From positions 1-38,001 of IMG/VR virus record IMGVR_UViG_3300008267_000360: a stretch of DNA of 38,001 nt; one strand, written 5' to 3'. This DNA comes from a virus. A program made the translations under genes and the position numbers. Below, piece by piece: positions 1 to 31,242 of the stretch (within the stretch, counting starts at the first letter, position 1; each line of letters starts with the position of its first letter). The notes below the pieces were generated by a model. That model worked only from the letters and a program-made list of their open reading frames with translations, had not been told where the DNA came from and searched no databases.

Positions 1-156
1 AGAAACAAAGTGGAGGATTAGTTCTCAGTAAACCGAACCACTATAAAATAAGGGAATTGTGAAGTTTCGGATTGTTTAGAAAAACAATGACCTAAACGTG
101 TAGTGTTTTATGGTAAACATTTTTGGACCGGGGTTCGAACCCCCGCATCTCCACCA
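1..156 (+). ncRNA. ssrA: tmRNA, 3' part (starts before the window)
   Basis: The last 30 bases form the T arm and acceptor of a tmRNA: GGACCGGGGTTCGAACCCCC is followed by the acceptor end GCATCTCCACCA with an encoded CCA at 154-156. Upstream, at about 103-125, lie a TGTAG motif and a short hairpin, as expected for the last pseudoknot of tmRNAs. The 5' tRNA-like half and the tag reading frame are outside the window. tmRNA with SmpB rescues stalled ribosomes. Phage-encoded copies are known but uncommon; if this is host DNA it would be the ordinary chromosomal gene. A tRNA was considered, but no anticodon arm fits. Confidence 0.85.
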
Positions 157-3235: not shown

Positions 3236-3309
3236 GCCTTCGTAGCTCAGCTGGATAGAGCAACAACCTTCTAAGTTGTGGGCCACACGTTCGAATCGTG
3301 TCGAGGGTA
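3236..3309 (+). tRNA. tRNA-Arg (anticodon UCU)
   Basis: A full cloverleaf. The acceptor GCCTTCG pairs with CGAGGGT (with G-U pairs), the D arm is GCTC/GAGC, the anticodon stem ACAAC/GTTGT closes loop CTTCTAA with anticodon TCT, and the T arm ACACG/CGTGT closes TTCGAAT. The CCA is not encoded. It reads AGA (and AGG), a codon used very often in this window, which is the usual reason given for phage-borne tRNAs. Confidence 0.92.
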
Positions 3310-3316
3310 CTAAATA

Positions 3317-18900: not shown

Positions 18901-19083
18901 TTATTTGCCTGTCTTTTTACCCTTAACGTTTGGATGATTGAGATAGTAATCAAAGAATAAAATACAACTTCTACACAAAATGTATTTTTTATCTGATTTA
19001 TCGGATGTCATTTCACAACAATCGTCTTTTTCTTTTTTACACTGTTGACAAGTATTAGTATGTCGGTCTCCGAAAGTAATCAT
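18901..19083 (-). CDS. Small zinc-ribbon protein, 60 aa
   Basis: Two Cys pairs, CQQC at about residues 12-15 and CRSC at about 37-40, plus CC in between, form a likely zinc ribbon. A basic C-terminus follows. It lies between the DHH gene and a small helical gene on the same strand. Function unknown. Confidence 0.65.
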   Translation of the reverse strand: MITFGDRHTNTCQQCKKEKDDCCEMTSDKSDKKYILCRSCILFFDYYLNHPNVKGKKTGK

Positions 19084-19096
19084 TAGTTAAGTATAA

Positions 19097-19291
19097 CTAT
19101 TTCTTTTTAACTTGTCCATTTTTTTTATTAAACTTCACAATATCTTCTTCATAAATGTTTAACAAATTTTCCAATTTAGTTTTATTTTTTTCTAATGTCG
19201 CAAATAGGACCGCATCATAGAATTTATCTTTCAAACTAGGTTTACTTTCAAAGTACTCAAACATTAATTCAGTGATTTCGTCAATAGTCAT
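19097..19291 (-). CDS. Small helical protein, 64 aa
   Basis: Not recognised. It is mostly helical and charged (TIDEITELMFEYFESKPSL) with a Lys-rich end. A TATTTATCATTATG element begins the unit. The zinc-ribbon gene starts 14 bases beyond its stop and is probably cotranscribed. Confidence 0.65.
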   Translation of the reverse strand: MTIDEITELMFEYFESKPSLKDKFYDAVLFATLEKNKTKLENLLNIYEEDIVKFNKKNGQVKKK

Positions 19292-19336
19292 AATGATAAA
19301 TATTTTAATAGTATTTATTCTTTTTTAAAACATTCA

Positions 19337-19344
19337 TATATTTA
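19337..19344 (+). promoter_or_regulatory. Probable -7 box of the Asn attenuator transcript
   Basis: TATATTTA differs from TATATTTG in one base and would start transcription near 19350, just before the leader peptide's ATG at 19352. Confidence 0.5.
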
Positions 19345-19351
19345 ATATGAA

Positions 19352-19399
19352 ATGAATACACGAACCAAATCAAATAATAATAACCATTCAGAATCCTGA
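19352..19399 (+). CDS. Asn-rich attenuator leader peptide (15 aa)
   Basis: The frame reads M N T R T K S N N N N H S E S stop, with four consecutive Asn codons at 19373-19384 and a fifth near the start. The stop codon lies inside the 5' arm of the following terminator hairpin. Its position, size and codon bias match ribosome-mediated attenuators for amino-acid genes. A ribosome stalled at the last Asn codon would cover the base of the hairpin. The gene downstream is an AsnRS-like core, which fits. Confidence 0.75.
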   Translation: MNTRTKSNNNNHSES

Positions 19400-19419
19400 C
19401 ATCAGTCAGGATTTTTTTT
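19392..19419 (+). terminator. Attenuator terminator upstream of the AsnRS-like gene
   Basis: A 9-bp stem AATCCTGAC/GTCAGGATT (19392-19400 / 19405-19413), loop ATCA, followed by a run of T. It sits after the Asn-rich leader peptide and 37 bases before the structural gene, so it would block transcription unless a ribosome stalls. Confidence 0.85.
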
Positions 19420-19455
19420 GCCCATACGTTAACAATAAACTAAAAATAAAAAAAA

Positions 19456-20283
19456 ATGAAAAACACAGAAACTTACAACGAATTAGTTCAAAAAATGAGA
19501 ACATTCTTCCAAGAGAAAGGATTTAAAGAAGTTCCAACCCAATCAAGATTATCAATCTTAGCTGCGTGTGAAAACCCACACTCAATAACAACATTTAATT
19601 ACCAAGGAGAAGTTTGGCCATTACCACAGACAGGCCAAATGTGGTTAGAATATGAACTTCTTAAAAATCCTGAATGGAATGGTGTATATTGTATTTCAAC
19701 GTCATATAGACAAGAAAAAGACCCAATTCCAGGTCGTCACGAAATGATTTTCCCAATGTTTGAGTTTGAATCAAAAGGTGGAATGAAAGATATGTTAAAA
19801 CTTGAATCAGAGCTTTTAGATTATTTAGGGTTTGATAAAGCAATTGAGGTTAACTATGATGATGTTTGTGAAGAATATGGTGGAGTTCAAATTTTAGAAA
19901 ACGAACACGAAACAAGAATGTGGGAAGAGAAAGGTCCTGTAGTGTCTCTTCAAAATTTCCCATACAGAACTAACCCATTTTGGAATATGAGAGAAGGGAT
20001 GGACAAAATTTTCAACAAAGTAGATGTGATTCTTTACGGACAAGAAACTATTGGTTCCGCTGAAAGAAGTTCTAATGTAGAAGAAATGAGAAATAATTTC
20101 TACACAATTGAGAATGGGAAATACTCTGAAAAACTTTTTGAGTTATTCGGTAAAGAAAGAGTTGAGAAAGAATTAGAAGAATTTTTATCACACGATTTCT
20201 TCCCACGTTTTGGTGGAGGAATTGGAATGACAAGATTGGCAAGAGCCTATCAGTTAATGATGGAAGAAGTCGAAGCTTTCTAA
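19456..20283 (+). CDS. AsnRS/AspRS-like class II catalytic core (no anticodon domain)
   Basis: At 275 aa it has the class II synthetase core. Motif 2 is seen in SYRQEKDPIPGRHEMIFPMF at about residues 93-112, the Asp/Asn-type signature in DVILYGQETIGSAERSSN at about 191-208, and motif 3 in FGGGIGMTRLARAYQ at about 253-267. The N-terminal OB-fold anticodon-binding domain of AsnRS (about 100 residues) is missing, as in archaeal asparagine synthetases derived from AsnRS. It may make Asn, an Asn-adenylate product or charge a molecule without reading anticodons. Asn-dependent attenuation is indicated. Confidence 0.8.
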   Translation: MKNTETYNELVQKMRTFFQEKGFKEVPTQSRLSILAACENPHSITTFNYQGEVWPLPQTGQMWLEYELLKNPEWNGVYCISTSYRQEKDPIPGRHEMIFPMFEFESKGGMKDMLKLESELLDYLGFDKAIEVNYDDVCEEYGGVQILENEHETRMWEEKGPVVSLQNFPYRTNPFWNMREGMDKIFNKVDVILYGQETIGSAERSSNVEEMRNNFYTIENGKYSEKLFELFGKERVEKELEEFLSHDFFPRFGGGIGMTRLARAYQLMMEEVEAF

Positions 20284-20284
20284 T

Positions 20285-20310
20285 AAAAACCCCTCCAAAG
20301 AGGGGTTTTT
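20285..20310 (+). terminator. Terminator after the AsnRS-like gene
   Basis: An 11-bp stem AAAAACCCCTC/GAGGGGTTTTT with loop CAAA, two bases after the stop. The reverse orientation also has a T run, so it may also end the small opposing gene at 20314. Confidence 0.85.
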
Positions 20311-20578: not shown

Positions 20579-20980
20579 TTATCTTCTTTTTCTTACAATA
20601 CGACTTTCCATCATTGTAGAGTCATTTTCTTCATCAGAAATACCCATATCTTTGTTATATCTTTTTCTCGAAACCTCACCCATTCCTGAAGGGTCTAGGT
20701 CTGTGGTTTCCATTGCTGTTTGTAAAGCCTTTTCAACTTTATCAGCTTCAGCGTCGTTACCAGACTTTCTTAATTTTTTAATTGCGGCTTTAATGTAGTG
20801 TGAACCTGCAATTCCTAACATTCCGATTACAGTTGTAACGATTGTTATAATTGCTTCACCTGTGTCCAACGCTTCAGGATTAAAGAAGTTTTCAGGTTGC
20901 TCATTCATTTCAGTTTCATTAACAATGTTCTTAATTAAAGATGTTAATTCTGATTCAGTTAAACGTATTACTTTTTTCAT
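20579..20980 (-). CDS. Type A leader membrane protein, 133 aa
   Basis: MKKVIRLTESELTSLIKNIV is a type A leader, and EMNEQ at residues 24-28 is the predicted cleavage position. One membrane segment follows (about residues 42-65, IITIVTTVIGMLGIAGSHYI), then a basic and acidic tail ending VRKRR. The Met at 20980 starts the leader; TATTTATAATAAAC lies upstream. The pattern suggests a single-pass membrane-associated virion protein. Confidence 0.72.
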   Translation of the reverse strand: MKKVIRLTESELTSLIKNIVNETEMNEQPENFFNPEALDTGEAIITIVTTVIGMLGIAGSHYIKAAIKKLRKSGNDAEADKVEKALQTAMETTDLDPSGMGEVSRKRYNKDMGISDEENDSTMMESRIVRKRR

Positions 20981-21017
20981 TTTTTTTCTGTTTATTATAA
21001 ATATGCTGTAATTTGAA

Positions 21018-21049
21018 TTTGACAAAAAAAAATTAATATATTATACTTG
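21018..21049 (+). promoter_or_regulatory. Host-type promoter of the FKBP gene
   Basis: TTTG at 21018-21021, a 20-base spacer, TATACTTG at 21042-21049, with the ATG at 21054. Confidence 0.65.
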
Positions 21050-21053
21050 AATT

Positions 21054-21479
21054 ATGAGTACAATTAAAAGTGGTGATAATGTCACCGTAAACTACACAGG
21101 TAGATTAGAAGACGGAACAATCTTCGACAGTTCATTAAACGAAGGTAGAACTCCATTAGTTGCAACACTTGGACAAGGACAACTTATTCCAGGTTTTGAA
21201 GAAGGATTAATAGGATTATCTACGGGAGAAAAAAGAACAGTTGAAATTGAACCTGAAAATGCGTATGGTCAACACAACCCTATGATGATTCAAGAAATTG
21301 AAAAAACTAACGTACCTGAGGGTGTTCAAGTTGGTGATACTTTACAAGGTATGAACCAATACGGACCAATTAATGTAACAGTTTCAGAAGTTAAAGAAGA
21401 AACTGTGGTTTTAGATATGAATCATCCACTTGCTGGTAAGAAACTTATCTTTGACTTGGAAGTTGTATCGGTTAACTAA
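21054..21479 (+). CDS. FKBP-type peptidyl-prolyl isomerase (SlyD-like)
   Basis: The FKBP pattern covers the whole 141 residues: VTVNYTGRLEDGTIFDSSLN, GQGQLIPGFEEGLIGLSTGE, ENAYG, and an insert-in-flap region (about 70-120) as in SlyD. The C-terminal NHPLAGKKLIFDLEVVSV is also typical. There is no signal peptide and no His-rich tail. It would catalyse proline isomerisation and act as a folding helper in the cytoplasm. In a phage this is unusual; help in folding phage proteins is an inference. Confidence 0.92.
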   Translation: MSTIKSGDNVTVNYTGRLEDGTIFDSSLNEGRTPLVATLGQGQLIPGFEEGLIGLSTGEKRTVEIEPENAYGQHNPMMIQEIEKTNVPEGVQVGDTLQGMNQYGPINVTVSEVKEETVVLDMNHPLAGKKLIFDLEVVSVN

Positions 21480-21543: not shown

Positions 21544-21945
21544 TTACGCTCTAACAAAATCAATATTTTGTAACGTACTTTCTAATGTAAATTGTCTTTT
21601 GTTATTTTGTTTAGCATCATACCATTTACTGGCAAATTGTTTTTGGTCATCAGAGTCCATACAATAAGATTTTCTAATTGTCCAATCCTGGCTATTTCCA
21701 ACACAAATTTCTCCGTTAGAATTCCATAAACCTTTAACCACCAAATATTGGTCTCTACCATTTTGTTCAGGAAATTTCATTTTCCATTTAACACCTTCAA
21801 TTTCTAAAAGACCGTATTCAGCTAGTTTGATTGGTACCCAATTGTCAATTTTTTCATCTTCATTTAGTAATCTTTTATTTTCGCTGATTACTTTTTTAAC
21901 TAATCTAACGATATCTGATTCGGTTAATCTAACAACTTTTTTCAT
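21544..21945 (-). CDS. Type A leader protein, 133 aa
   Basis: MKKVVRLTESDIVRLVKKVI is a type A leader, followed by RLLNED at residues 25-30, matching the L-x-E site with D after it. The remaining 100 residues form a compact Trp-rich domain (GVKWKMKFPEQNGRDQYLVV, NSQDWTIRKSYC) of no named family. The Met at 21945 starts the leader; a TATTTATTAATAA element lies upstream. Confidence 0.72.
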   Translation of the reverse strand: MKKVVRLTESDIVRLVKKVISENKRLLNEDEKIDNWVPIKLAEYGLLEIEGVKWKMKFPEQNGRDQYLVVKGLWNSNGEICVGNSQDWTIRKSYCMDSDDQKQFASKWYDAKQNNKRQFTLESTLQNIDFVRA

Positions 21946-22010
21946 AATTTTAATTTTATTAATAAATATCAATATGGATAGAAAAATTTTTCAATATCAA
22001 AAAAAAACAC

Positions 22011-26816: not shown

Positions 26817-27152
26817 TTAATTACCCATTCCTGATTTTGCCAACTTTGTTAGGTTGTCATATATTTTACTTAAATCCCCTTTAGTTGCAGCATTTACTAA
26901 TACGTCATACTGACTACCCAATTGTTGTTTGTAGTTACCAATAGAATCAACTACACCTTTACTATCGCCAGTTAAACAATCCCATATAATACCTCCAATA
27001 ACATTTGATGGTAAAACTTTTACCGCCAATTTAATTGCGTTATATAAAATTTCACCCATATTCGCAGAAGTACCAACAAATGTTTGTTCTTGGATGACTC
27101 TTGTCACAATTCTTGTAACGTCTGATTCTGATAGTTTAACAATTTTTTTCAT
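26817..27152 (-). CDS. Type A leader protein, 111 aa
   Basis: MKKIVKLSESDVTRIVTRVI ends at VIQEQT (residues 19-24), one of the clearest leader-plus-site examples. The 88 residues after it hold a hydrophobic Gly-containing helix (LPSNVIGGIIWDCLTG) and a helical end. The Met at 27152 directly follows the TATTTATAATT element; 27176 would place the leader internally. Confidence 0.75.
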   Translation of the reverse strand: MKKIVKLSESDVTRIVTRVIQEQTFVGTSANMGEILYNAIKLAVKVLPSNVIGGIIWDCLTGDSKGVVDSIGNYKQQLGSQYDVLVNAATKGDLSKIYDNLTKLAKSGMGN

Positions 27153-27177
27153 AATTATAAATATATCAAAAAACAAA

Positions 27178-30520: not shown

Positions 30521-30588
30521 ATTACAATAAATACATTAGAAATAAAAAGGGGGTTGGGGGATTGAACAACAGAGAAAAATTATTTTTT
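30518..30588 (-). repeat. Intergenic cassette repeat, copy 2
   Basis: Core AAAAAGGGGGTTGGGGGATTG then AACAACAGAGAAAAATTATTT. It joins the 30580 gene's stop to the 30520 start codon with the element GTATTTATTGTAATATG. Confidence 0.8.
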
Positions 30589-31242
30589 ACAATCATCAAA
30601 TTTTTTGGATATAATTTCTTTCAATTCATCAAGTTCAGAGCGGAACCCTAAATTATAATGCCAAGCAATTTCATTCGAATATCTTTTTTTCATTTCCTCA
30701 ATTACTTCATCAGATGCTTGTTTTATTAATTCACATTCATCACTATAATCATTATAAAACCATCTATCAATCATTTCTTCCACAGTGTCTTGTATAGGTT
30801 TCCTCCATATAATCAATGAAATAATACGATGAATTAATGTACTAATTCTTTTTGATGTTTTTCTTTCAATAGACTTTAATTCTTTAAGGATATCACCATT
30901 AAGGTAATTTGATTCAATTAAATCTAACAATAAATTTATGGCTTTATCTTGATTATATCCGTTAATTGATAAGTTGTATTTAACACCTCCATCATTATTA
31001 TAAATTAATAATCTTAATCCTCCACCTGAATTTTCGTTTCTAATATCACCATAAAAATTTCTTACTTTGGTGGTGTTATCCAATAACTTATATAGTTTGG
31101 TATTTTCTAAAACATCAAAAATATTTAAACTGTCTTCCTTTTCTCCAATTCGTTTTGCTGGACGTTTTTTATCAGATTCGTTAACCACCCTACTGACTAT
31201 TCTAATCAAATCTGATTCAGTTAATCTTACAACTTTTTTCAT
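30580..31242 (-). CDS. Type A leader protein, 220 aa
   Basis: MKKVVRLTESDLIRIVSRVV ends at VVNES (residues 19-23). A basic stretch KKRPAKRIGEK follows (24-35) and is shared with the next gene. The rest is a helical, charged domain (about 60-220). Its ATG overlaps the stop of the 31239 gene by four bases. The unit is bounded by cassette copies 2 and 3, so it is a two-gene cassette. Confidence 0.72.
   Translation of the reverse strand: MKKVVRLTESDLIRIVSRVVNESDKKRPAKRIGEKEDSLNIFDVLENTKLYKLLDNTTKVRNFYGDIRNENSGGGLRLLIYNNDGGVKYNLSINGYNQDKAINLLLDLIESNYLNGDILKELKSIERKTSKRISTLIHRIISLIIWRKPIQDTVEEMIDRWFYNDYSDECELIKQASDEVIEEMKKRYSNEIAWHYNLGFRSELDELKEIISKKFDDCKK

Follow-up and report, generated by a model that had tools for sequence, protein, structure and literature searches.

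A short Asn-rich frame running into a terminator precedes an asparaginyl-tRNA synthetase-like gene in related phages, probably as a transcription attenuator

We analysed a 38-kb viral contig from IMG/VR (38,001 nucleotides; here referred to as the window), in which a plus-strand gene at 19456..20283 encodes a 275-aa protein that is a stand-alone class II synthetase catalytic domain. It is preceded on the same strand by a leader ORF at 19352..19399, with its ATG at 19352 and its TGA at 19397-19399. The 15 codons and the stop (ATG AAT ACA CGA ACC AAA TCA AAT AAT AAT AAC CAT TCA GAA TCC TGA) encode the peptide MNTRTKSNNNNHSES (M N T R T K S N N N N H S E S). Four Asn codons in a row, AAT AAT AAT AAC, occupy 19373..19384 (+), 7–16 nt 5′ of the stem of a terminator hairpin, and the resulting NNNN is found in no other 8–30-codon ATG ORF on either strand of the whole window. 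The hairpin (19392..19413, +) has a 9-bp stem, formed by AATCCTGAC (19392-19400) and GTCAGGATT (19405-19413) around an ATCA loop, and the leader stop codon lies inside its 5′ arm. The T8 run of the terminator (19412..19419, +), whose first two T are paired at the stem base, is followed by GCCC; the extended stem with its tail has a predicted energy of about −13.9 kcal/mol. The 15-codon frame, the Asn run, the 9-bp hairpin with its T run and the stop codon within the 5′ arm had all been described in the initial annotation and are all present in the sequence.

A second terminator follows the gene at 20287..20310 (+), read from the sequence as CCCCTCCAAAGAGGGGTTTTTTT / AACCCCTCC-AAAG-AGAGGGG-T7, and the gene is thus a one-gene unit. 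Since the upstream neighbours (19097-19291 and 18901-19083) are on the minus strand, the plus-strand leader hairpin belongs to no listed upstream gene, and its reading as an upstream gene's terminator was ruled out in the window. This hairpin was missing from the output of a generic terminator scan of the window; the likely reason is greedy extension of its stem, by A-T and G-T pairing, into the T-run. GCCC is found 3′ of the T-run in most phage leaders, including that of the window (19412-19423), and ACCC or ATGC in others. Elsewhere in the window are a partial tmRNA gene at 1-156 (+), cut by the contig end, and a tRNA-Arg(TCT) at 3236-3310. The products of four minus-strand genes (20579-21025, 21544-21972, 26817-27176 and 30580-31242) are dissimilar apart from a MKKVVRLTESD(L/I)xR(I/L)V-like stretch that each has at or close to its N-terminus, suggestive of a common targeting or processing signal.

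The encoded protein matched Pfam PF00152 (7e-13), the class II catalytic domain of the Asn/Asp/Lys type, and no anticodon domain was present in its 275 aa. It is included in PHROG 29758, which is listed as of unknown function. In a PDB profile search the best match was a eukaryotic cytoplasmic AsnRS (1.5e-10), and the AF2 model (pLDDT 92) had AsnRS 1x54 as its best Foldseek match (E 2e-18). The archaeal asparagine synthetase A 3reu (TM 0.74/0.71) was, among the matches listed, the only one of the same single-domain size. The score for TIGR00457 (AsnRS) was 27 bits against a cut-off of 342.6, and that for NF005053 (archaeal asparagine synthetase A, alike in architecture with a single domain of ~290 aa) was 21.9 bits against a cut-off of 322. 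The AsnRS-like fold predicted in the initial annotation is therefore borne out by PF00152 and 1x54, but the protein lacks an anticodon domain and could be an asparagine synthetase. We regard it as a single-domain protein resembling AsnRS and archaeal asparagine synthetase, and either activity, the charging of tRNA or the making of asparagine, would fit an Asn-sensing leader.

Relatives of the protein were identified in Patescibacteria, Bacteroidota, DPANN archaea, Chlamydiae and others. Among 25 genomes that carry a relative, asnS was above the cut-off in 10 and GatB in 17, so these organisms usually have another route to Asn-tRNA as well, and a role as the sole AsnRS of the host is unlikely for most of the bacterial relatives examined. 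In a Chloroflexi MAG and in the cyanophages P-SSM7 and P-SSM2, where the relatives are annotated as 'tRNA ligase', the gene is directly followed by a tRNA-Asn(GUU) of 87–91 nt whose variable arm is long (type II). The sites of tRNA-Asn(GUU) were L082:3778-3864, L083:3786-3873, L324:3808-3898 and L309:1915-2003; in a Flavobacteriaceae MAG it was near the gene. The adjoining tRNA-Asn points to tRNA charging at least in those cyanophages and the Chloroflexi MAG, with a dedicated synthetase–tRNA pair as a possible arrangement. In the bacterial and archaeal relatives, a hairpin was found in 22 of the 78 with enough upstream sequence and the ORFs were not Asn-rich; thus, the attenuator appears to be a phage elaboration. 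Patescibacterial and related members (L261, L278, L282, L291 and L298) carry another leader, made of ATGCATAAA or a similar sequence, a GCCC-TTCG-GGGC-like hairpin and then TTTTTTTATGC. Its ends look complementary and it had no Rfam match, and it is possibly a separate cis-element.

The alignment of homologous upstream regions that the initial annotation had suggested was carried out on relatives collected by protein-guided scans of viral contigs, with several queries and 80 loci fetched per query (more than 590 viral relatives in the full set). The first set comprised 97 distinct upstream regions after removal of identical ones. The hairpin rule called for a run of at least 6 T shortly 5′ of the gene; the ORF rule called for an ATG 25–80 nt before the stem and an end within −25 to +20 nt of the stem, with amino-acid content ignored. 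A hairpin with a T-run just 5′ of the gene was present in 78 of the 97 regions, and a short ATG ORF ended at the hairpin in 70 of those 78. Clustered at 50% identity, the leader peptides formed 30 groups that are less than 50% alike, with examples such as MVTKKVKRKLRNLNNNNIFKKS, MRFRRKYNNNNNKIVIGNPVI, MMNNNRNLNINYKKS, MKKLQNNGDNNPF, MINNLINNK, MTRYKLYTPNNYIT, MENNITNNNYLLNKK and MHRKKQNKNNIIT, each ending at a stop codon. The hairpins vary as well, beginning with AATCCTGAC, AATCCTCC-TTCG, AATCCCTTC, AAGTCCCTA or AATCCGTC in different relatives. Hence the hairpin, the T-run and an Asn-rich short ORF recur in most related phages, with differing sequences.

Several unrelated leaders precede genes whose products are 94–96% identical to the window protein, which indicates that the leader is rebuilt fast on the same plan. 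Inside a group, Asn codons alternate between AAT and AAC (L009/L012) or move by whole codons (NN to NNN in L030/L031). Some lineages have few Asn codons (none in L096 under the rule used, one each in L372 and L380), others have a hairpin with no qualifying ORF (L051, L074 and L119), and in some others the whole element is absent. A later batch of 18 new upstream regions, fetched after the rule was fixed, had both hairpin and ORF in 14, and in its seven new groups Asn made up 15.1% of codons in frame vs 5.8% out of frame (p 0.02); the direction is the same, and weaker, in these more distant members. A distant blastn search of phage records with the leader gave spurious short matches only, and the query L085 retrieved no relatives in viral contigs. 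A different class of leader, with no terminator, was observed in L034, L038, L042, L044, L047, L227 and L229, and consists of a short inverted repeat with A9-10 immediately after it and then TTTCTATG or similar, before the same gene.

Asn accounts for 97 of the 465 leader codons of the 30 groups (20.9%); read in the two alternative frames, those nucleotides give 7.8% and 5.3%. AAY triplets numbered 97, 34 and 23 at offsets 0, 1 and 2, and in comparisons by group the ORF frame had more of them than one alternative frame in 21 groups (v 4) and more than the other in 25 (v 1). Stop-free dinucleotide shuffles gave 58.1 ± 6.8 Asn codons, with none of the 500 reaching 97, which corresponds to a z of 5.8, the next best amino acid being Arg with 2.5. 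NN runs were found in 18 of the 30 groups vs 5.3 ± 2.1 in shuffles (0/500). As a control, 66 distinct short ORFs found by the same rule 5′ of other hairpins in the same loci contained 7.0% Asn and had NN in 4/66, against 21.6% and 16/29 for the leaders (Fisher p 3e-14 for codons and 3e-7 for NN), p-values that, like the others here, are optimistic as the leader groups are not fully independent lineages. The leader arrangement and its Asn richness are beyond chance, and a composition artefact is ruled out by the comparisons with other frames, shuffles and control ORFs.

The Asn codons are also placed in a particular way relative to the stem. They peak 15–33 nt before its first G-C pair, make up 27.5% of codons within 0–27 nt 5′ of the stem vs 14% outside (p 4e-4), and are represented in this 0–27 nt zone in 25 of the 30 groups; between −12 and −9 nt from that G-C pair, in turn, there are none (0/36). 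The leader stop falls at −18 to +11 nt from the stem (18 nt inside to 11 nt outside) in 29 of the 30 groups, the exception being L236 with a doubtful stop at +22. In E. coli, a ribosome within ~27 nt of the terminator stem represses the terminator in vivo, and with a stop codon 5 bp away from the stem termination falls from ~90% to <10%, whereas in classical attenuators the leader stop is >20 bp from the terminator (Li et al., PMC4824070). With the stop at or in the stem, a direct block of the terminator by the ribosome would thus be expected. The initial annotation had held that a ribosome stalled at the last Asn codon would cover the arm. With the usual footprint and that codon in the A-site, it would reach ~19394 and cover the arm only in part, by about 3 nt; the ~27-nt suppression zone would still apply (PMC4824070).

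In leaders aligned at the ATG, a TATATTTAT-like block is conserved at columns −12 to −6 and columns −30 to −28 are T-rich, and some leader groups, e.g. L080, have TTGACT-N17-TATATT. This alignment suggests a presumed leader promoter at 19325..19351 (+) of the window, with a TATATTTAAT-type −10-like element just 5′ of the leader ATG. With the promoter-like block in this place, transcription would start at the ATG or a few nt before it, and the leader ORF may have no or a very short 5′ UTR and be nearly leaderless. A further candidate leaderless transcript was observed at an FKBP-like gene (21054), where TTGACA-N17-TATACT ends 6 nt before the ATG (21019-21054, +).

The distance from the T-run to the gene ATG is 13 nt in the L059/L061/L063 group and 10 nt in L041/L065. 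As a promoter 3′ of the terminator cannot fit in 10–13 nt (L041, L059, L061, L063, L065 and L069-L071), the gene must be reached by terminator readthrough in those groups; in the others, a promoter in that place is conceivable. The nearest upstream ORF of at least 50 aa is on the opposite strand in 17 of the 30 groups, and opposite-strand neighbours rule out a terminator of an upstream gene for many groups, not in the window alone; it is the likely reading in L036/L039/L040/L043/L055/L056, where a plus-strand gene ends just before the hairpin. No antiterminator was found in the window, in which the leader with the 5′ arm folds to −2.7 vs −1.4 ± 1.4 when shuffled, and most other groups do not exceed their shuffles; L072, L132 and L147 have an additional stable leader structure. 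Neither a T-box nor another Rfam element was detected, as only tRNA and tmRNA reach the threshold in the window.

Taken together, we consider it likely that the element is a minimal, antiterminator-free, phage-borne transcription attenuator that senses Asn codons, in which scarce Asn-tRNA would lead to a stalled ribosome that blocks the terminator, so that the gene is transcribed. The hairpin and Asn-rich ORF that recur before the gene in most related phages support the attenuator reading of the initial annotation. From the sequences we infer that transcription would begin at or just before the leader ATG and that a ribosome would load onto the short leader ORF. By default, the hairpin and T-run would form within ~70 nt and transcription would end. 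When charged Asn-tRNA(Asn) is scarce, the ribosome would pause on the Asn codons, ~7–27 nt 5′ of the stem, and would keep the hairpin from closing beside RNA polymerase, and the synthetase-like gene would be transcribed. When it is plentiful, the ribosome would reach the stop at or inside the stem and be released, and the terminator would fold. As no alternative fold exceeds the shuffles, in most groups ribosome position alone would be the switch, with no separate antiterminator.

The direction of the response deserves caution. Until it is released, a ribosome that has arrived at the stop codon would block the hairpin as well, and readthrough might not be low when Asn is replete, so the direction would depend on release and kinetics. 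In E. coli, terminators within the initial 100 bp mostly evade repression because the ribosome lags behind (PMC4824070), and some pausing or very fast initiation would therefore be needed. An opposite polarity similar to that of pyrBI/pyrE, in which a freely moving ribosome suppresses the terminator, an Asn stall frees the hairpin and the gene is expressed under ample Asn, would agree with the place of the leader stop, which in nearly all groups is inside the stem or no more than ~11 nt from it, with the fall in termination from ~90% to <10% caused in E. coli by a stop 5 bp from the stem (PMC4824070) and with the Asn-free positions at −12 to −9 nt. It would make little sense for an enzyme that charges or makes asparagine, and the Asn codons concentrate within the zone where termination is suppressed by a paused ribosome, not beyond it; we judge it unlikely. 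The same two points, an asparagine-related product, the nearest fold of which (AsnRS) matches the sensed amino acid, and Asn codons in the repression zone, favour readthrough upon stalling.

It is also conceivable that nothing is sensed, with a constitutive partial terminator, an ORF that arose by chance or for translation coupling, and Asn codons as an A+T-rich unstructured spacer. AAT is common in DNA such as this genome of 31% G+C, and low upstream structure would help any terminator; still, the excess is tied to Asn and to the ORF frame and goes beyond what stop-free dinucleotide shuffles and control ORFs from these phages show, which makes this explanation quite improbable. The promoter-like and terminator elements of the leader predict a discrete short transcript, which could encode a functional micropeptide or act in trans as a regulatory RNA, yet peptides and hairpins are almost unrelated between groups and only the Asn richness and the layout persist, so we give very little credence to either role. 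Nascent-peptide arrest is likewise unlikely, as the peptides are not conserved. The attenuator that responds to Asn-tRNA thus remains our preferred reading, and these phages probably sense asparagine supply during transcription of the gene.

If this holds, these phages would keep track of the charged Asn-tRNA that the infected cell has and respond by making an asparagine enzyme of their own, and PHROG 29758 would gain a functional clue, asparagine. The roughly 30 reshaped leaders would offer a natural series for asking whether a stalled ribosome alone, with no antiterminator, can control an intrinsic terminator. We give about even chances to a bolder statement, that this is the smallest ribosome-mediated attenuator known, a leaderless Asn-rich ORF running into a terminator with no antiterminator, in which ribosome position reports Asn-tRNA charging, and which is carried by a widespread phage family that has repeatedly rebuilt the leader and kept its logic. 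In the literature, searched as open-access text, we found no phage amino-acid attenuator and no leader keyed to asparagine.

Amino-acid attenuators are a textbook form of bacterial regulation. In common with those of the trpL, hisL, leuL and pheM-pheST type, the window has repeated codons for one amino acid in a short leader ORF, then an intrinsic terminator and then a gene tied to that amino acid. The phage element does not, however, have the three-hairpin design of trp-type attenuators: an antiterminator hairpin is missing from the window and most groups, and the leader stop is at or in the terminator stem, not >20 bp upstream. It further differs from classical attenuators in a possibly leaderless ORF, a total leader of ~70 nt, the sensing of Asn and its location in phages. 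T-box riboswitches 5′ of asnS and asnA in Firmicutes bind uncharged tRNA directly. They share with the phage element the control of an Asn-related synthetase gene by premature termination; unlike them, the element has no Rfam T-box match in the window and no T-box-like structure.

The closest precedent found is that of the actinobacterial ilvB leaders, in which runs of Ile/Val/Leu codons overlap terminator hairpins and no antiterminator was proposed (PMC1262725). Regulatory codons adjoin or overlap the terminator with no alternative hairpin there as in the phage leaders, although the amino acids and the host group are different, and codon substitution had no effect in Streptomyces coelicolor ilvB, the mechanism of which was left unresolved (PMC1262725). 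In pyrBI/pyrE, as would be the case in the phage leaders, the ribosome itself stops the terminator from folding and there is no antiterminator (PMC10135430, PMC4824070). The corresponding anatomy is present in the phages: the ORF, which is predicted to be translated, extends to the stem, and in the window and most groups folding revealed no alternative structure. While pyrBI/pyrE senses UTP through pausing of RNA polymerase, the codons of the phage leader point to the supply of Asn-tRNA.
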